Assembly: GCA_014382605.1 (NCBI GenBank)
Contig: JACNJM010000183.1
Location: 1-33,068 of the forward strand
DNA from: Anaerolineae bacterium
Lineage (GTDB): Bacteria > Chloroflexota > Anaerolineae > Anaerolineales > UBA11858
DNA: 33,068 nt
Reading direction: 5' to 3'
Positions within the stretch are counted from its first letter, which is position 1. Each line of letters starts with the position of its first letter. The notes below the pieces were generated by a model. The model ran no database searches. It was given only the letters and a program-made list of their open reading frames with translations, and was not told where the DNA came from. The position numbers and the translations under genes are program-made. Below, in pieces: positions 4,849-29,428 of this stretch.

Positions 4849-6084
4849 CTAAGGCAACAATCGCCGCAGCCAGTCTTTCATTTTCATCCAATCTACGTTT
4901 TCACCCGAGATGATCGGGCGACGCGAACTGTAGGCACCGACAAATTCACTCATCAGCACAGCCCAGCGCAACAAACCAACACTGGTTGCATACGCCGGAG
5001 AATTAAGTTGATCGACCATACCAATGATATTCTTGGGCTGGGAGATTTGCACCGGCATCCCCAATACATCCTTTGCCAATTGACGAATACCTGGCAAATT
5101 ACTCACACCACCCGTCAAGATCATGCCTGCGGGCAGCAAGCCATCATAACCCGAGCGTTTGATTTCCTGCAAAACCAGGCTGAAAATTTCTTCAATACGC
5201 GCTTCAATAATGTGGGTCAGATCGCCGCGTAATATCTTTACGGGATCTTTTTCGCCAAAGGGATTGATATAAAAAGCTTCTTCGGGGTCAATCTCGCCTT
5301 GCAGCGCATGCCCGTGCTTTAGTTTTATCTCTTCGGCTTGCTCAAGCGATAAGTGCAACCCGTGGGCAATATCGGAGGTGACATGATTGCCGCCAACGCC
5401 CAGCACCATCGTGTGCCACACATCGCCATCAATGAATATTGCCATATCGGTTGTGCCGCCGCCAATATCACACACAACCACCCCCATTTCGCGCTCCGAA
5501 TCTGAGAGTACAACTTCTGCGGAAGCCAGGGGATTGAGTACAAACTGGCTGGCGTGCACCCCCGCAGCCGCAACAGCCTGACGCAGGTTTTCCACCGTGG
5601 CAGCCGCGGCAGTAATCACATGCGTTTCCACTTCCAGCCGGTAGCCGTGCATCCCCGTCGGGACACGAATGCCGCCCTGCCCATCCACAACGAAATCACG
5701 CTGAATCACATGAATCACTTCGCGATTATGCGGAATTGAAACTGCGCGGGCGGCTTCTACAGCTCGCACAACATCGTCATTGCTAATTGTGCGCCCCGAT
5801 ACGCCTACCACACCGCGACTATTTTCTGATGTAATAAACGATCCCGCCAAACTCACCAGCGCCGATTCAATTTCAAGGCCAGACGTATGTTCAGCTTTTT
5901 CGACCGAGCGCGCAATGACTGCACCGGCCGCGTTCAAATCTACCACGCCGCCTTTGCGCATTCCTTTCGAGGGTTCAATGCCTACGCCCAAAATTCGCAA
6001 CTGGCTATCATTCTCTAAACGGGCAACCAGCGTGCAAGTCTTGGTCGTTCCGACATCAATACCAACAATAATTGGCGATTCCAT
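4849..6084 (-). CDS. ftsA: Cell division protein FtsA
   Basis: Actin-like IVGIDVGTTKTCTLVA, CDIGGGTTDMAIF, ILTGGVSNLPGI. Directly upstream of ftsZ. Confidence 0.96.
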   Translation of the reverse strand: MESPIIVGIDVGTTKTCTLVARLENDSQLRILGVGIEPSKGMRKGGVVDLNAAGAVIARSVEKAEHTSGLEIESALVSLAGSFITSENSRGVVGVSGRTISNDDVVRAVEAARAVSIPHNREVIHVIQRDFVVDGQGGIRVPTGMHGYRLEVETHVITAAAATVENLRQAVAAAGVHASQFVLNPLASAEVVLSDSEREMGVVVCDIGGGTTDMAIFIDGDVWHTMVLGVGGNHVTSDIAHGLHLSLEQAEEIKLKHGHALQGEIDPEEAFYINPFGEKDPVKILRGDLTHIIEARIEEIFSLVLQEIKRSGYDGLLPAGMILTGGVSNLPGIRQLAKDVLGMPVQISQPKNIIGMVDQLNSPAYATSVGLLRWAVLMSEFVGAYSSRRPIISGENVDWMKMKDWLRRLLP

Positions 6085-20406: not shown

Positions 20407-20442
20407 GGGTTGGATGGGTTGATTGGTCTTATTGGTCGTTAG
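20407..20442. repeat. 9-bp quasi-tandem repeat in the mraZ-rsmH gap
   Basis: GGGTTGGAT|GGGTTGATT|GGTCTTATT|GGTCGTTAG on the + strand, four units in a 9-bp register. Confidence 0.7.
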
Positions 20443-20500
20443 GGCAGCTCGGTGGTTGAAAGCGCCTCGTTTGACCTGTAAGACAAATCCAGCCATAAGA

Positions 20501-20929
20501 CTATAATTCCAGGGCCGCAAAGCGCTGTGAATTGGCATCGACATCGCTGAGCAAGCGAAGCTGTTCATCCCAGGCATCAGGCAGCCAGATTTCGATAGCC
20601 TCGCCAACGCCTACAATAACAGCATCCGTTTGCAATCCAGCCACATCGCGCAAAAACTGCGGAATCAAGATGCGGCCAACGCTATCCAGATCGGCCTCGC
20701 TGGCGCTTGCGAAGATCAAACGACGCAAAATACGGGTCAGCGGATCGGTCGTCTGCATCTGACTGACTTTGGTAGCCATTTCATCAAACGCCGCCTTGGT
20801 CACCAGTCGCAGGTTGCGATCAAACCCTTGAGTCAGATGCGCGCCATTCGATAATTCGTCGCGAAACTTTGCTGGAATTGTCAATCGTCCCTTGTCATCA
20901 AGCGAATGGCGATACTGACCCAAAAACAT
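20501..20929 (-). CDS. mraZ: Transcriptional regulator MraZ
   Basis: MFLGQYRHSLDDKGRLTIPAKFRDEL (AbrB-like). ATG at 20929 with GGAGAAATAGAACAA upstream. The track start at 21010 lies inside the promoter/operator. Confidence 0.96.
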   Translation of the reverse strand: MFLGQYRHSLDDKGRLTIPAKFRDELSNGAHLTQGFDRNLRLVTKAAFDEMATKVSQMQTTDPLTRILRRLIFASASEADLDSVGRILIPQFLRDVAGLQTDAVIVGVGEAIEIWLPDAWDEQLRLLSDVDANSQRFAALEL

Positions 20930-20975
20930 TTGTTCTATTTCTCCATTAAACAACCACACGCCGGTCGCCCGGCGC

Positions 20976-21000
20976 GCCACTTCTTCCCACTTTATCCCAC
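20976..21000 (-). promoter_or_regulatory. Three phased MraZ-binding boxes
   Basis: Minus strand GTGGG-ATAAA-GTGGG-AAGAA-GTGGC: three GTGG(G/C) units at exact 10-bp period upstream of mraZ. Confidence 0.88.
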
Positions 21001-21010
21001 AAGCACACAC

Positions 21011-21039
21011 AGTATATACGAAACGCTTCTAAAATGCAA
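21011..21039 (-). promoter_or_regulatory. Sigma70-type promoter of the dcw operon
   Basis: Minus strand TTGCAT (21039-21034), 17-bp spacer, TATACT (21016-21011), immediately upstream of the MraZ boxes. Confidence 0.8.
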
Positions 21040-21230
21040 GTAGTTTTGTCCAATTTGAAAGGTATACGAAAGCTTGTTGAGGCTTATACACTCACCTGCA
21101 TACGAAGTCCATCCCTGTTTTTTTGTTATTTTCTCGCTGCGCGGCGAAAGCTCTACGCGCTTACATGCGATACAATATGCCGAGCAAGCACAACTCCAAA
21201 CCAACGCAGATCACCGAAAGGAACGATGGA

Positions 21231-22736
21231 ATGGAAATATCAATTTCTGATTACAGCGAAAATAATTTAGATCAGGCTCTAGCCGCCTTCAAAAAATACT
21301 ATCCCTCTTTTGAAAGCACTCATCGATTAGATAATTTGCGCGCCAGCGAGTACGCCCGCCTGGAAAAACACAATCAAATCTATTTGGATTACACTGGTGG
21401 TGGTTTGTATGCCGCATCGCAACTTCACCAGCACATGGCTCTGTTAGAAGAAGGTATTTTTGGCAATCCCCACTCTAAAAACCCAACTTCGCTCGTCATG
21501 ACGCACCTGGTTGAACAGGCGCGTAGTTATGTACTGGAATTCTTCAACGCCTCACCCGATGAATATGTGGTCATCTTCACACCCAATGCCAGCGGCGCGC
21601 TGAAACTTGTGGGCGAAGCGTATCCATTTAACGCACACAGCCGTTATTTGCCTGCCTTTGATAACCACAACTCGGTGAATGGTATTCGCGAGTTTGCACG
21701 TAGCAAAGGCGCAACAGTAACCTACATACCCACTGTGATGCCGGAATTACGTATGGATTCAGCCGCGCTCGAAGCAGAATTGAATCAAGTTGAACCCGGC
21801 AGCGATAATCTATTCGCCTATCCGGCGCAATCCAATTTCACCGGCGTACAACATTCGCTGGAGTGGATTGCGATGGCGCAAGCCAGGGGTTGGGATGTTT
21901 TACTTGATAGCGCAGCCTTCGCCCCCACAAATCGCCTTGATCTGAGTATCTGGAAACCTGATTTTGTGCCGTTGTCATTTTATAAAATATTCGGCTACCC
22001 CACCGGAGTGGGCTGCTTGCTGGCCCGCAAAGTAGCTCTGCAAAAATTACAACGCCCCTGGTTTGCTGGCGGAACCATTTCGATTACCTCCGTACAAGGC
22101 GAAGGGTGGCATTATTTATTAGAGAATGAAGCCGGATTTGAAGATGGCACCGTCAATTATCTCAATTTGCCTGCCATAGAGATTGGTTTGCGTCATATTG
22201 CCAGCATCGGTATTGATATTATTCACGAACGGGTTGCCTGCCTGACTGGCTGGCTGCTGAACCAAATGATAAATCTGCGCCACAGCAATGGGCATCCTCT
22301 GGTGCAGATTTTTGGGCCTACAAACCTGAAAGAACGGGGAGGGACGATCTCGTTCAGTGTGGATGACCCCGAGGGGGCGCGCATCGACTACCGGCGTATC
22401 GAAGCATTGGCGAACCAGGCAAATATCTCGCTACGAACAGGCTGTTTCTGCAATCCGGGAACCGGCGAAATCGTGCATCACCTGGAAAAAGAAGAAATGG
22501 CTCAAGTTTTCAATCAACCAGCCGCTTTATCGTTTGATGATTTCTTTGATTGGGCGCAAAGTGAACATAACCGCAACCCCAGCACCATTCGCATCTCGGT
22601 TGGGATCGTATCCAACTTTGCGGATGTCTATCGGTTTATGCAATTTCTCCACAGCTTTAAAGACAAACTGGATGCAGATATTCAGGTGGTTGAAATAGAT
22701 TATCCAAAATATGGCTTACTACGTGACAGTGCATAA
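21231..22736 (+). CDS. Class V aminotransferase, molybdenum cofactor sulfurase-like / cysteine desulfurase-like
   Basis: YLDYTGGGLYAASQL, NPHSKNPTS, PLSFYKIFGYPTGVGCLLARK (PLP Lys), RTGCFCNPGTGE (Cys). ATG at 21231 follows GAAAGGAACG. ATG at 21177 is also possible. Confidence 0.85.
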   Translation: MEISISDYSENNLDQALAAFKKYYPSFESTHRLDNLRASEYARLEKHNQIYLDYTGGGLYAASQLHQHMALLEEGIFGNPHSKNPTSLVMTHLVEQARSYVLEFFNASPDEYVVIFTPNASGALKLVGEAYPFNAHSRYLPAFDNHNSVNGIREFARSKGATVTYIPTVMPELRMDSAALEAELNQVEPGSDNLFAYPAQSNFTGVQHSLEWIAMAQARGWDVLLDSAAFAPTNRLDLSIWKPDFVPLSFYKIFGYPTGVGCLLARKVALQKLQRPWFAGGTISITSVQGEGWHYLLENEAGFEDGTVNYLNLPAIEIGLRHIASIGIDIIHERVACLTGWLLNQMINLRHSNGHPLVQIFGPTNLKERGGTISFSVDDPEGARIDYRRIEALANQANISLRTGCFCNPGTGEIVHHLEKEEMAQVFNQPAALSFDDFFDWAQSEHNRNPSTIRISVGIVSNFADVYRFMQFLHSFKDKLDADIQVVEIDYPKYGLLRDSA

Positions 22737-22766
22737 TTCCTCCCCCGGGGTCGGCAGCCGGACTTC

Positions 22767-22809
22767 AACGCTGACTTCCGAAATCTTCGAGTCTTCGAAA
22801 GTCAGCGTT
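22767..22809. terminator. Large hairpin between convergent genes, possible bidirectional terminator or repeat element
   Basis: AACGCTGACTTCCGAA (22767-22782) and TTCGAAAGTCAGCGTT (22794-22809): 16-bp arms with one mismatch, 11-nt loop, no strong T-tract. Confidence 0.6.
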
Positions 22810-22810
22810 T

Positions 22811-23842
22811 CTATCGGCGCAGTTTTCGCCCCATTTCCATGATTTCATCTACCCAAACTTCCTGATAGGCGTTGTGCAAAACTTCGGGTAGCAGATGTAG
22901 TGAACGCGCCGGGGTTAGCGGGCGCTCGGCCCAGACACGGTTGACGATGAAATCCACATCTCGGTGCAACCCTTTGGTATCAAAAAGCAAACCCACGAAG
23001 GGATGGCGGGAACGGATGTCGGCAAGCAATGGGCGCGAGATGCCAAAAGCCGAATGCGGAAAGGAGAAGGGAACAATTTCCTGCCCGGTGATTTCCTGCA
23101 CAATACGGCACGAATCTACGATTTGGGCTTCGATTTCGGCAGCATCCAGCCCGCGCAATTTGGGATGTGATTTAGTATGCGCGCCGATCACAAAACCCTC
23201 GGTGTGCATCTGCCGAATTTGCTCACGCGTCAGATAGGGCCGGACTTCACGTAAAAATGATTGCCAATCCACACCCAGTACGCGGCAAATTTCATTGATC
23301 AGGGCTTCATCAGACAGACGCAGTCCTTTGAGCCACTGAATCGCTGCGTCAGACGTCGTGACGTCGGATATCAGCCCAGCGAGTTTTTCTCGCTCAGACG
23401 GCTCGCCGTGTAGACGTTCAACACACAATGAAATTTTATTGCGGTAAAACATGGCCTGGTTATCCACCCAATCGGTGGCGACGAAAAATGTGCAGGGGAT
23501 TTTCTTTTCCAGCAGTAACGGGCGCACCACCGAGTAGCATTCGCCAAAACCATCGTCAAACGAGAGATGCGCCGCGTTGGATGGCAATTGCTGCCCCTGC
23601 GTGTAATGGACGTGCAATTGAGGGTAGTCCACCGGCGTGTAATGCGCACGAATGTAGTCCAACGCCGCCGCAAATCGCGCCACCGGTACCACCGGATACA
23701 GCCAGCGGGCAAATTCCATCGGCTCATCAGAAACGGCATGATAGAAAATATCCACATGAGACCGGCGTAAAACGAATGGATATAGATTAAGGGGTAGTAA
23801 ACGTGCTATGAATTCAAGGGTTTTGATGAATAGTGTTTTCAT
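22811..23842 (-). CDS. Polysaccharide deacetylase (NodB-like, CE4)
   Basis: HLSFDDGFGECYSVVRPLLLEKKIPCTFFVATD and GAHTKSHPKLRGL. Start M14 (23842) preferred, because the longer ORF begins inside a repeat element. Confidence 0.85.
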   Translation of the reverse strand: MKTLFIKTLEFIARLLPLNLYPFVLRRSHVDIFYHAVSDEPMEFARWLYPVVPVARFAAALDYIRAHYTPVDYPQLHVHYTQGQQLPSNAAHLSFDDGFGECYSVVRPLLLEKKIPCTFFVATDWVDNQAMFYRNKISLCVERLHGEPSEREKLAGLISDVTTSDAAIQWLKGLRLSDEALINEICRVLGVDWQSFLREVRPYLTREQIRQMHTEGFVIGAHTKSHPKLRGLDAAEIEAQIVDSCRIVQEITGQEIVPFSFPHSAFGISRPLLADIRSRHPFVGLLFDTKGLHRDVDFIVNRVWAERPLTPARSLHLLPEVLHNAYQEVWVDEIMEMGRKLRR

Positions 23843-23845
23843 ATT

Positions 23846-23910
23846 GAAAGTTACAGGTTGAAGGTTAGCAGGTTGTGTCAATAACTTTCGACCTGCAACC
23901 TGCCAACTCT
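23846..23910. repeat. 7-bp-periodic imperfect palindrome
   Basis: GAAAGTT|ACAGGTT|GAAGGTT|AGCAGGTT, with an inverted counterpart CTTTCGACCTGCAACCTGCCAACT. Confidence 0.65.
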
Positions 23911-25095
23911 TTAAGAAAAGGCCATATCCCCATCCACCAGCTTGAAGGCCAAATCATCCCAGGCTTGCGCCAGGGGGCTGTCGTTGGCCTTGGGCATACA
24001 TTGGTAGATGCGCGTTTTAGAATGCAACAATATTTTTCTCGGCCAGCGCGGCTGCATATATTGCGCCATTTCTTGCGGGATTTCGATCGTATCGGCCTGA
24101 TGCTGCCGCCCGTAACGCAACGCCAACGCCAACGCATAACGCCGGTCTTCGCGGCGGGAAAATTGATAATCAAGCATTTTCAGAAAAACACTATCCGCTG
24201 ATTTGCGGGAAATCGAAAAGGTCACAAATCCCAAATATTCACCTTCCGGGGAGGTGATCTCGACCCCAAAGATGCGATACATGGGGCGCGTATCACTGAA
24301 ATAGTAATCCATTTCTGCGGTGACGGATTGGCCTGCGTCGACGATCCAGGGGTAGTGCAACATCCAGTTGACCGCGTCAGCGCCGCGGTGGAGTTCGACG
24401 TTCGGACGCGGCTCGGGGGTGGTAGGCGCCTCCCGAAGATGAGTCACATCCTCATAGCGGGCACCCGCCAGGAGCGAGTCCGCTGTGCCGCTCATTACTC
24501 GGTAGATAATCTTTTTCGTCCACGGGGCAAACCAGTTATCCACGCGTTTTATAAAATCCGTCTTCAGGGGTACTTCGCGCTTGATCCGCAGCAGATGCAC
24601 CACTTTTCGCATCCCGCGGCGGAGCCAAACCAGCGGATTGAGATGCCCCATGCCGGTAGCATCCAGCCAGTAATAATGCAGCGGAGCGCGCTCCCAAAAG
24701 CCATATTTTTGGCACACCCGCCGGGCATGAACACTGCCCACGATGAGATAATCTAGCTTGAGGCCAAGCGCTTCGGCCATAAGCTGCGCGCCAACCCCTT
24801 GCCCGCGCACCTTGCCCGAAACCGACCAGGTAGTGAACCAGTGGACTTTGAAAAGCTCTTCGCCGCGGCGCAACAAAAGCGGCAAAATGCCGAAGAAACC
24901 GACGACTTCATCGTCAGCGTCTATGGCGACGAGCAAGGCGACATCGTCTTTTGCGGCGTAGGGATTATTGGCGTGAGCCAGGGCGCGCTGCATGGTGATG
25001 GGGATAAACTGCCCGGGTTGGGCGCTCCCCAGCACGCGCTCGGCGAATTCATGCAAGTCTTTGACTTTAATATGGTCGAAACGAATATTGCTCAT
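23911..25095 (-). CDS. GNAT-family N-acetyltransferase
   Basis: N-terminal GNAT features (VVGFFGILPLLL..., VSGKVRGQGVGAQLMAEAL, HARRVCQKYGFWERAPL) plus a long C-terminal region that may be a second degenerate GNAT fold. Confidence 0.7.
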   Translation of the reverse strand: MSNIRFDHIKVKDLHEFAERVLGSAQPGQFIPITMQRALAHANNPYAAKDDVALLVAIDADDEVVGFFGILPLLLRRGEELFKVHWFTTWSVSGKVRGQGVGAQLMAEALGLKLDYLIVGSVHARRVCQKYGFWERAPLHYYWLDATGMGHLNPLVWLRRGMRKVVHLLRIKREVPLKTDFIKRVDNWFAPWTKKIIYRVMSGTADSLLAGARYEDVTHLREAPTTPEPRPNVELHRGADAVNWMLHYPWIVDAGQSVTAEMDYYFSDTRPMYRIFGVEITSPEGEYLGFVTFSISRKSADSVFLKMLDYQFSRREDRRYALALALRYGRQHQADTIEIPQEMAQYMQPRWPRKILLHSKTRIYQCMPKANDSPLAQAWDDLAFKLVDGDMAFS

Positions 25096-25150
25096 AATTT
25101 TTGATTATCGACGGCACATTTGGAAAATGGCGCTGAATTTCAACGCGGAC

Positions 25151-25201
25151 TACGCGAATAAGCAAATCGCGCGAATGAAAAACAAAGAGCAAATTCGCGT
25201 A
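25151..25201. repeat. Inverted repeat of an ACGCGAAT-type element
   Basis: TACGCGAAT (25151-25159) and ATTCGCGTA (25193-25201), 9-bp perfect arms. Confidence 0.5.
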
Positions 25202-25236
25202 ATTCTATACTGGTCAATAGTGGTATGAACACATCT

Positions 25237-25304
25237 CACGCAAAGACGCAGAGCCGCAAAGCTGTTTTCTCTCTTATTTCTTGGCGACTTGGCGCCTTTG
25301 CGTG
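25237..25304. repeat. 8-bp-periodic palindromic element
   Basis: CACGCAAAGACGCAGAGCCGCAAAG (25237-25261) against CTTGGCGACTTGGCGCCTTTGCGTG (25280-25304). The arms are imperfect inverted copies made of CGCAAAGN-type units. Confidence 0.75.
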
Positions 25305-25397
25305 AAAATGTTTGTGTTTACACTTCTCTTGATGATTACAAAATTCGCGTAATTCACTATATTGGCGGCATTCGTGTTCAAAAAACAGAGTAGACAA

Positions 25398-26249
25398 TTA
25401 TACATAGTGTCTCAGGATAGCCTGTATCTGTTCAAGATAGGCACGACCAAAAAGATTGACATGATTGAGCAGATGATAGAGATTATACAGCGGAAAACGA
25501 CTGCGATAGCCCCCTTCGAGGGAACGCGTTTCTTCATAAGCTCGATAGAAAACTTCGGGGAAAGCGCCAAAGAGAGTAGTCATGGCGAGTTCGGCTTCGG
25601 CCCAGCCGTAATGCGCCGCCGGATCAATGATGGCGGGCGCGCCATGCCTGTCGCTGATGGCGTTACCGCTCCACAAATCGCCGTGTGATAAAGATGCCGG
25701 TTGCGCGGGAATGAGATTGGGCAGGCGAGTGATGAGTTTATCGAGTTTTTTTTTGTCAGTCGCGCTGAGCAGATCGCTATCGTAGGCCAATTGTGCCTGA
25801 AACCCTAACCGCTGCTCGGCAAAAAAAGCATAGCCATCTTGCATCCAGGGGTTGGGCTGAGGGGTGCTGCCAATATAGTTATTGTGTGCGAAACCAAATT
25901 GATGGTTGGTGTTTTTGTGCAAAGCCGCCAGTCGATGCCCAAACTCAGGCCAGTAATCCTTCTGGCGCGGCGCAGGGGTTAAATCTTCCATCAAGATAAA
26001 ACCATCACCCCAGAGCAAGGGATTCGGCACAACCGGCCCATCGGCGGTACGCAAAACTTCGAGGCCATCCGCTTCACGGGCAAACGTATCCGCCGGAGCG
26101 CGCCGATTGGTTTTAAGGAAAAAAGTTTCCCCCGAAGCCACCTCAAGAATCATGCCGTTGCTAATACAGCCACCATCAACAGGGCGCGTGGATATGATGG
26201 GGCCGTAATGATTTTGCGTAAACCACGAATGCACAAGCTGAGGAATCAT
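25398..26249 (-). CDS. Fructosamine-3-kinase-like protein (FN3K / aminoglycoside phosphotransferase fold)
   Basis: FFLKTNRRAPADTFAREADGLEVLR, GFILMEDL, LSHGDLWSGNAI, PAIIDPAAHYGWAEAELAMT, matching FN3K rather than generic APH. Confidence 0.9.
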   Translation of the reverse strand: MIPQLVHSWFTQNHYGPIISTRPVDGGCISNGMILEVASGETFFLKTNRRAPADTFAREADGLEVLRTADGPVVPNPLLWGDGFILMEDLTPAPRQKDYWPEFGHRLAALHKNTNHQFGFAHNNYIGSTPQPNPWMQDGYAFFAEQRLGFQAQLAYDSDLLSATDKKKLDKLITRLPNLIPAQPASLSHGDLWSGNAISDRHGAPAIIDPAAHYGWAEAELAMTTLFGAFPEVFYRAYEETRSLEGGYRSRFPLYNLYHLLNHVNLFGRAYLEQIQAILRHYV

Positions 26250-26257
26250 GTTCGATT

Positions 26258-26278
26258 GCAGGTTGAAAGTTGGGGGTT
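26258..26278. repeat. 7-bp quasi-repeat between phosphatase and kinase genes
   Basis: GCAGGTT|GAAAGTT|GGGGGTT. GAAAGTT is shared exactly with the 23846-23910 element, and GCAGGTT occurs on both of its arms. Confidence 0.55.
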
Positions 26279-26762
26279 AGATATTTCCACGTTCTAATGC
26301 ATCCAGCAAACCCAGGCAAGAGCGTTCAACGATCTGAAAAACTTCTTCGAAGCCATCAATACCGCCATAATAGGGGTCGGGGACCGGATCATTGGGGCTG
26401 CCCTGAGGGTCAAATTCACGCATCAGGCGAATTTTCAACCGCGCGGCTTCGCTATCGGCCAAGCGCGATAAATCGGCATGATTACTGGCATCCATGGCAA
26501 TAATCCAGTCAAATTCGAGGAAATCGCGCTTTGTTACCTGACGCGAGCGACCAGTATAGCGAAAACCGTGTTCGGCGGCCACACGGCGCATCCGTCGGTC
26601 GGGTTCTTCGCCCACGTGCCAACCTGAAGTTCCAGCGGAATCGACTTCGTATTTATGCCCCAGGCCAGCCTGCTCAGCCAGATGCCGGAACATGCTCTCC
26701 GCCAGGGGGCTGCGGACAATATTCCCCAAACAGACAAAACAGATGTGGGTTGAATCACTCAA
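26277..26762 (-). CDS. Low-molecular-weight protein-tyrosine-phosphatase family protein
   Basis: ICFVCLGNIVRSPLAESMFRHL P-loop, DSAGTSGWHVGEEPDRR, VPDPYYGGIDGFEEVFQIVE. TTG start with GGAGG six bases upstream. Confidence 0.92.
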   Translation of the reverse strand: MSDSTHICFVCLGNIVRSPLAESMFRHLAEQAGLGHKYEVDSAGTSGWHVGEEPDRRMRRVAAEHGFRYTGRSRQVTKRDFLEFDWIIAMDASNHADLSRLADSEAARLKIRLMREFDPQGSPNDPVPDPYYGGIDGFEEVFQIVERSCLGLLDALERGNI

Positions 26763-26810
26763 TCGGAGCCTCCAGATGCGCTAGAAATAACCCTCGAATC
26801 GTACCATAAA

Positions 26811-26877
26811 AGACGGCAGGCTACAGACCGCAGAGCAATATCAATTGCTCATCATTGCAGTCTGTAATCTGCCGTCT
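26811..26877. repeat. 7-bp-periodic long palindrome
   Basis: AGACGGCAGGCTACAGACCGCA (26811-26832) against TGCAGTCTGTAATCTGCCGTCT (26856-26877), 19/22 complementary, enclosing GAGCAAT-ATCA-ATTGCTC. Confidence 0.8.
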
Positions 26878-29183: not shown

Positions 29184-29412
29184 ACACTCCTTCGTAAGGA
29201 ATAGAAGAAAATGGGATGCATCACAGGACTTGTGGAGGGTTGATTTCTGCTTCCAGGCTTTTTCCTATTCCCAAAGCAATGCCTGATAAAACGCATCCGC
29301 GAAAGTAGGTCTATTTTGCCCCCAAATATGAACCGTGCAAAGTTTCGTTTGTCACCTTTTCAGCAGAAACCTGACTAAAAATTTACACTGCCTTCCATTA
29401 TCAACGCAATCA

Positions 29413-29428
29413 TGTTAAACTGTTAACA
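29413..29428. promoter_or_regulatory. Inverted repeat TGTTAA-N4-TTAACA upstream of recA, candidate operator
   Basis: TGTTAAACTGTTAACA: 6-bp perfect arms, 4-bp spacer, 36 bp upstream of the recA ATG. Confidence 0.5.

Follow-up and report, generated by a model that had tools for sequence, protein, structure and literature searches.

Nested mobile elements and short-period palindromes in the intergenic DNA of an Anaerolineae bacterium

The gaps between genes in a 33,068-nucleotide stretch of DNA from an Anaerolineae bacterium (the window; contig C37 of a 3.66-Mb draft genome in 339 contigs) carry elements built from short, quasi-repeated units of 7, 8 or 9 bp. We read these as a mixture of mobile elements and ordinary hairpins, with a probability of roughly 0.7 for the following combination: a miniature inverted-repeat transposable element (MITE), here called MITE-1, lies nested in an older element; octamer-periodic palindromes form the cores of several transposon shells; the shells are moved in trans; and the octamer palindrome is an independent hairpin module. 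A preliminary description had suggested one generating mechanism for the elements, either slippage plus inversion or a non-autonomous mobile element. All the sequences that it quoted were found in place.

MITE-1 and the older element that it interrupts

The features of the nested insertion are as follows, G004 being the draft genome of another species in the same genus.

25206–25340, no strand assigned: MITE-1, 135 bp, with imperfect inverted ends TATACTGGTCAATAG...CTTGATGATTACA (consensus TGTA...TACA)
25191–25205, plus strand: left target-site duplication (TSD) AAATTCGCGTAATTC, 15/15 identical to the right copy; G004 has one copy
25341–25355, plus strand: right TSD AAATTCGCGTAATTC, paired with the left copy
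25236–25305, no strand assigned: MITE-1 core, an octamer-periodic palindrome (inverted repeat 81%; fold z −5.8)
25111–25379, ends approximate, no strand assigned: older degenerate MITE-2-class element with a ACGCGAAT octamer palindrome, interrupted by MITE-1

The segment at 25206–25340 is a MITE that inserted into the older degenerate element with duplication of 15 bp. The colinear locus in G004, at 86–93% identity, lacks MITE-1 and has the target once; because this is a clean empty site in the same genus, MITE-1 must have transposed. Two further genomes, G005 and G010, also carry no MITE-1 at the orthologous locus, contrary to an account in which G004 lost it by precise deletion. MITE-1 is the biggest difference across 33 kb of colinear sequence from the window's genome and G004. 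For this CGCAAAG element the earlier suggestion of a non-autonomous mobile element was correct: terminal inverted repeats, a TSD, multiple copies, no gene and evidence of transposition are all found, as in a MITE.

The core consists of the units CGCAAAGA CGCAGAGC CGCAAAG ... CTTGGCGA CTTGGCGC CTTTGCG. A 23-mer from it, CGCAAAGACGCAGAGCCGCAAAG, gave 19 matches in the genome, 13 of them exact, and none with the reversed control. MITE-1 itself has 26 matches across the genome. Copies extend to 135 bp, with imperfect terminal inverted repeats (TIRs) TGTACTGGTCAATAG... / TGTAATCATCAAGAG... and a right end ...CTTGATGATTACA, the overall end pattern being TGTA[CG]TGGTCAATAG / CTTGATGATTACA. Six of the seven readable copies, and the copy on C275 as well, have 15-bp direct repeats at their flanks; in five of the six the TSDs agree at 15/15 or 14/15 positions, in the sixth at 15/16, where mismatched pairs average 6. 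Numerous contigs end within a copy (C135, C275, C322, C326, C46, C38, C259, C324 and others), so the MITE-1 family breaks the assembly and its true copy number may differ.

When MITE-1 is removed, the segment at 25111–25379 is 79% identical over 120 nt to a dispersed copy in G004 (L096; E 6e-23). Intact MITE-2 relatives have CTACCGTACAT ends, read as TTCGCTACCGTACAT / ATGTACGGTAGAAA, and are flanked by the 9-bp TSDs ACAACTGAT and AATTGTGAT. This older element (TTCGCG) is missing from the orthologous gap in G005 and G010, and the copies in the window's genome and in G004 differ by one 9-nt unit.

Octamer palindromes inside and outside transposon shells

Elsewhere in the same genome, MITE-1 copies nest in two further element types and so reveal their ends. 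The first, MITE-B, has the TIR GGCTTTCTTAAAGT (end sequence GGCTTTCTTAAAG) and a direct repeat of ∼14 bp; the second, MITE-C, which lies outside the window, has the TIR GTAACTRCTCAGC and 8-bp TSDs (GAGGAAGC at L023 and CATATTAG at L022). A fifth type, MITE-D, with CAATACYTT ends and 10-bp TSDs, was found in another genus of the same phylum, with well over 100 copies in three genomes among the matches listed. The shells were recognised by inspection from a modest number of copies. An octamer-periodic palindrome lies inside all five. The four shells other than MITE-1 differ in their terminal repeats and target duplications and come from this genus and one other of the phylum, and MITE-1-type ends surround three different cores in three species.

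The octamer core has two inverted arms of CRCRRAKN-type units flanking an A/T-rich loop, and each unit has seven of eight positions conserved and one free spacer base. Most cores are made of CRCRRAKN units; their outer boundary is constant (TTTAA, TTTGA or GCTCA) and the inner side varies. The shared architecture seen in the preliminary description has a real basis, although on a different level: the octamer palindrome is a module found in several unrelated transposon shells. As a separate observation, two loci (L094 on G005 contig C464 and L110 on G001 contig C180) show a further small shell, in which TGACTCTACTGCAAAAA...TTTTTACAGTGGAGTCA form the inverted ends and a GGAATATATGGGGGTG hairpin lies inside.

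The source of one shell can be suggested. In G003, of the same genus, an IS66 transposase gene has GTAACTACTAAGC on either side, to be compared with the GTAA-type TIR GTAACTRCTCAGC of MITE-C, which indicates IS66 as the source of MITE-C. The shared TIR and the 8-bp TSD both agree with the IS66 family, and MITE-C would then be moved in trans by its own IS66-like transposase. For MITE-1, the ends and the TSD suggest that an IS1202-like transposase may act in trans in the same way. An rve transposase was considered as its partner and set aside: none was found in the window's genome or G004, and no MITE-1 ends were found around the three rve hits in G005.

The octamer palindrome also occurs outside shells. 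The pattern TAACGCAAAGNCGCAAAGNCGCAAAG, with 24 fixed bases, was found in at least 119 stretches, against a chance expectation of ∼0.002 in 257 Gb on both strands. The CRCRRAKN unit with a TAAC boundary is present in about ten phyla, archaea included. Hosts of TAACGCAAAGNCGCAAAGNCGCAAAG are found among the Acidobacteriota, Verrucomicrobiota, Desulfobacterota (Geomonas, Geobacter), Myxococcota (Sorangium), Chlamydiota, Chloroflexota, Bacteroidota, and Alpha- and Gammaproteobacteria, as well as Methanothrix. Since several of the genomes are finished or from isolates, contamination cannot explain every host. In the window's own phylum a three-unit pattern of the octamer is present in 49 of 301 genomes. 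The reversed-pattern control was nonzero in a few genomes, where the copy counts for the three-unit pattern are upper estimates.

Target duplications around complete octamer palindromes were no more frequent than expected by chance (1 of 38, versus 3.2 expected). Some complete palindromes hold other palindromes in their loops; at L239, L255 and L256, CGCAAAG palindromes have the periodic palindromes CACGAAT and GACAGGAAAATT nested in this way. In the Acidobacteria metagenome-assembled genome (MAG) N075bin57 (L173, L203, L215, L218 and L271), an inverted outer sequence TCAATATTAAGAAAAGCG encloses octamer arms, followed inward by purine-rich arms, and a clear target duplication was not seen at these loci. 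In a Desulfuromonadales MAG (L230), seven octamer arrays lie in a row at ∼85-bp spacing, in the manner of a tandem array of bacterial interspersed mosaic elements.

We put forward, tentatively and at somewhat less than even odds, that inverted arrays of CRCRRAKN octamers, with an invariant outer boundary and lacking a TSD, are a gene-less hairpin family of bacteria and archaea that moves, inserts in hairpin loops and recurs as an interchangeable core of unrelated MITEs derived from insertion sequences. In the more probable reading given at the outset, the octamer palindrome would be an independent hairpin module, REP-like in behaviour, spreading without target duplication. It may become trapped in shells or act as their target, and replication slippage could lengthen or shorten it. 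Viral spread was considered and set aside: only 14 stretches are in viral contigs, and phages therefore do not look like the main carriers.

A role for the arrays as binding sites deserves more weight than the other alternatives and is nevertheless unlikely. Here, paired octamer and heptamer arrays would be putative sites for a global regulator or a nucleoid protein (IHF/HU), some of them picked up by shells. The conserved unit with its free spacer base is what a protein array might require, and Aklujkar et al. 2009 (PMC2700814) propose paired inverted arrays in Geobacter metallireducens (GTTGCTYN, TCTCCGTS[Y] and MTYCTGA) as regulator sites. However, orthologous gaps at ∼88% species identity have different families or none, the position of the arrays relative to genes shows no bias, and unit number drifts between orthologues.

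It is highly improbable that the elements are repetitive extragenic palindromes (REP/REPIN) moved by a REP-associated tyrosine transposase (RAYT; Y1 tyrosine transposase), even though they are short intergenic hairpins with paired and single arms, without TSD and at high copy number in some genomes. The three Y1_Tnp genes of the window's genome have no arrays adjoining, only one of 13 Y1_Tnp loci in six high-copy genomes has any array nearby, and the period-8 arms are unlike the 20–40-bp GTAG/CGTC-tagged REPs (PMC3733652). A RAYT partner was rejected on the location of these Y1_Tnp genes.

Several observations weigh against the combination of nested MITEs, trans-moved shells and an independent octamer module. 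Most of the compared genomes are drafts, with truncated element copies where contigs end. The cores of MITE-B and MITE-C match CRCRRAKN only loosely, and the G003 copy of IS66 matches at its ends but has no clean 8-bp TSD. A transposase was not found for MITE-1, MITE-B, MITE-2 or MITE-D; as to rve genes, the two genomes in which none was found are drafts that break at repeats. No stand-alone octamer palindrome could be matched to a clean empty site, and the mobility of the stand-alone module is for this reason inferred from distribution and turnover. Two loci in the genus of G304 were rejected as clean insertions of a stand-alone core, one being a lineage-specific extra arm pair and the other an altered core within an unchanged shell.

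Periodicity, unit turnover and the remaining window elements

The remaining elements of the window are listed here.

20407–20437, no strand assigned: 9-bp direct repeat GGGTTGGAT/GGGTTGATT/GGTCTTATT (the GGTTGGAT element), between rsmH and mraZ
22767–22809, no strand assigned: TCTTCGAG hairpin, terminator-like, between convergent genes (fold z −4.2 and −6.4 on the two strands)
23843–23890, no strand assigned: CAGGTTG 7-bp-periodic palindrome of a dispersed family (nine genome matches; reversed control 0)
26256–26280, no strand assigned: single arm of the CAGGTTG family; the G004 gap has a different periodic palindrome instead
26811–26877, no strand assigned: AGACGGC 7-bp-periodic hairpin, terminator-like, 3′ of the malic enzyme-Pta gene (fold z −7.9 and −8.4)

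Statistics on periodicity were taken from ∼390 kb of stretches of the window's genome and 328 kb from G004, from which ∼70 kb of intergenic DNA was used for lag enrichment. Each gap was also tested for its best lag against dinucleotide shuffles of the same gap (∼90 tests, p uncorrected). The best lag was 9 for the gap at 20407 and 7 for that at 26856 (p = 0.005 for each), 7 at 23843 (p = 0.015), and 8 at both 25266 (p = 0.035) and 22763 (p = 0.05, marginal). With nominal p values of 0.005–0.05, the individual elements are only moderately convincing.

The pooled intergenic segments were clearer. In the window's genome, observed and expected counts were 4 versus 1.2 at lag 7, 15 versus 1.3 at lag 8 and 6 versus 1.3 at lag 9, after subtraction of one N run that adds 1 at each lag; in G004 they were 13 versus 0.8, 6 versus 0.3 and 3 versus 0.3, respectively. 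The remaining lags were at about shuffle level, save for small counts (three each) at lags 6 and 10 in G004. Periodicity of 7–9 bp beyond that of shuffled intergenic DNA, as originally claimed, is thus clearly present, and the enrichment makes the period class real, with several unit families. The 8-bp families are CGCAAAG, CACAAAG, CTCTGCG, ACGCGAAT and ACGCAGAT; the 7-bp families are GTTGAAGG/CAGGTTG, GACGGA and CAGTNNT. Intergenic autocorrelation over the 390 and 328 kb was raised at lags 7, 8 and 14. It was also raised at lags 9, 12, 15, 18 and 21, which, as multiples of 3, have in common a signal such as overlooked coding sequence would produce.

Orthologous elements in the window's genome and G004 differ by whole units, i.e. 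9 nt for the TTCGCG element and 14 nt (two heptamers) for CAGGTTG at 23843. Slippage, one of the processes suggested at the outset, therefore tunes arm length. Over ∼65 kb of synteny, many gaps with a periodic palindrome in one of the two genomes contain another such palindrome, or no such element, in the second, and a chimeric hairpin in G004 joins an arm of 7-bp units (GTTGAAGG) to an arm of 8-bp units (CTTTGCG). From this turnover, the chimeric arms, the heptamer indel and the extra arm pair noted above, slippage and arm recombination appear to act on top of insertion. Separately, contig C222 of the window's genome has at ∼5412–5459 a palindrome CCCTCACCCCAACCCCTCTCCC...GGGAGAGGG...GGTCAGGGTGAGGG where G004 has none; it resembles the Geobacter class 4 arrays (CCYTC), which PMC2700814 describes as like multicopy sequences of many genomes.

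The same whole-unit indels speak for a purely local origin, in which slippage and inversion would make each palindrome in place with no mobility. So does an earlier survey, Mrazek et al. 2007 as cited in PMC4679880, according to which heptamers are the commonest long simple repeats in most surveyed genomes and slippage is proposed. Yet a 135-bp MITE with an empty site refutes this origin for MITE-1, the 24 fixed bases are identical in about ten phyla, and CAGGTTG copies have loop sequence in common rather than units alone. As an account of the whole set, local origin has very little probability; for GGTTGGAT and AGACGGC it may hold.

The CAGGTTG palindrome has further relatives in the sampled sequence and may behave as a second hairpin module. 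At 23843–23881 it adds MTQPANLQPVTFN in frame to the N-terminus of the deacetylase open reading frame, the true start of which is probably the ATG at 23842.

The elements were originally called mostly palindromic. This is true of TCTTCGAG, CGCAAAG and AGACGGC (z −4 to −8) and weakly so of CAGGTTG (RNA fold z −2), but not of GGTTGGAT, which has a minimum free energy of 0 and is no hairpin. Copies elsewhere were likewise found for some elements, i.e. CGCAAAG, CAGGTTG and TTCGCG, the last not singled out before. AGACGGC is single-copy genome-wide at three mismatches, and no further copies of TCTTCGAG or GGTTGGAT were found in the 390-kb sample. The findings do not support one process behind all the elements. 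Three of those quoted look single-copy and are either hairpins or, in one case, a simple direct repeat, at positions common to the relative. The families with 8-bp units are distinct in sequence from those with 7-bp units. The dcw operon interior is indeed free of such elements, trivially so because it has almost no gaps.

The GGTTGGAT repeat is 85% identical in G004, with an equal number of units, and is probably unrelated to the mobile set. The TCTTCGAG hairpin persists in G004 in altered form, and its T run is weaker than that at 26811, where TTTT follows the AGACGGC stem on the minus strand. The AGACGGC hairpin is common to the window's genome and G004, and G001 has a longer relative in the same slot. 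Judged on sequence, the TCTTCGAG and AGACGGC hairpins are best read as putative terminators or 3′ hairpins outside the mobile set.

An extension of this reading to all the elements, as intrinsic terminators of flanking genes that are alike in structure and not in descent, is scarcely probable. The hairpins are strong by RNA fold, and an unrelated hairpin fills the AGACGGC slot in G002 and G003. Against this, GGTTGGAT forms no hairpin, MITE and TSD structure is present, and counts of 17 versus 14.8 for convergent gaps and 12 versus 16.2 for divergent gaps show no excess or deficit beyond noise. The missing orientation bias speaks against a terminator role for the whole set.

Neighbouring genes identified by Pfam in the window encode MraZ, a class-V aminotransferase, a polysaccharide deacetylase, a GNAT protein, a fructosamine kinase, a low-molecular-weight phosphatase, a malic enzyme-Pta fusion and RecA. 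No known RNA in Rfam matched anywhere in the window. Upstream of recA, the segment at 29390–29428 (...TTATCAACGCAATCATGTTAAACTGTTAACAG) is 94–97% identical in G006 and G002, where recA is only ∼71% identical, and from its conservation it is likely to be a promoter or an SOS-type operator.

Comparison with known systems

Short-period repeats of this type are common across environmental genomes and find their way into protein annotations, as with the MTQPANLQPVTFN extension. Were the octamer palindrome a single mobile family that unrelated transposons use as a core, much of the intergenic turnover in several phyla would have one cause. The conservation of 24 positions across about ten phyla without genes would then be testable, with a trans-acting enzyme, a host factor under selection and horizontal transfer as the candidates. 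There is precedent for MITEs, REPs and short-period intergenic repeats. The literature, with most subscription journals outside the search, gave no account of the arrays as a cross-phylum family or as MITE cores, and nothing relevant on the exact motifs.

MITE-1 is like other bacterial MITEs in size, inverted ends, target duplication, multiple copies, intergenic location and the lack of a gene, and unlike them in its core, a periodic octamer palindrome common to unrelated MITEs. The IS1202 family has 5′-TGT ends, imperfect TIRs of 24–26 bp and TSDs of 3–5 bp or at least 16 bp, with one subgroup having long TSDs of 16–28 bp (PMC10132070). MITE-1 shares the TGT ends, imperfect TIRs and long TSD, a resemblance of ends and TSD only; its 15-bp TSD is just outside the published lengths, and a TnpAjo2/TnsB-like transposase was not found.

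REP/REPIN sequences (PMC3116915, PMC3733652) and the octamer palindromes are both intergenic hairpins, paired or single, with no TSD and sometimes in high copy number. The octamer elements differ in their period of 8, in having no RAYT association and in lacking a GTAG/CGTC unpaired foot, with TTTAA, TTTGA or GCTCA at the outer boundary instead. The heptanucleotide repeats of cyanobacteria and Beggiatoaceae (short tandemly repeated repetitive sequences and long simple sequence repeats; PMC4679880) also have 7-bp intergenic units and slippage. Those are perfect direct repeats, whereas the window elements have inverted arms and degenerate units.

The closest parallel is with the arrays of G. metallireducens, as described by Aklujkar et al. 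2009 (PMC2700814), where paired inverted octamer and heptamer arrays are putative global-regulator sites and the class 1 sites have ISGme8 and ISGme9 at a constant distance. Classes 1–4 are, like the elements described here, inverted pairs of tandem 7–8-nt units with a variable spacer. By the legend text of that paper, the class 2 unit TCTCCGTS[Y] is the reverse complement of a CRCRRAKN unit, and the inverted pairing is the same. The difference is one of setting: the Geobacter arrays are interpreted as the regulator sites of one genome, whereas the arrays described here occur in many phyla, lie within MITE shells and show high turnover.

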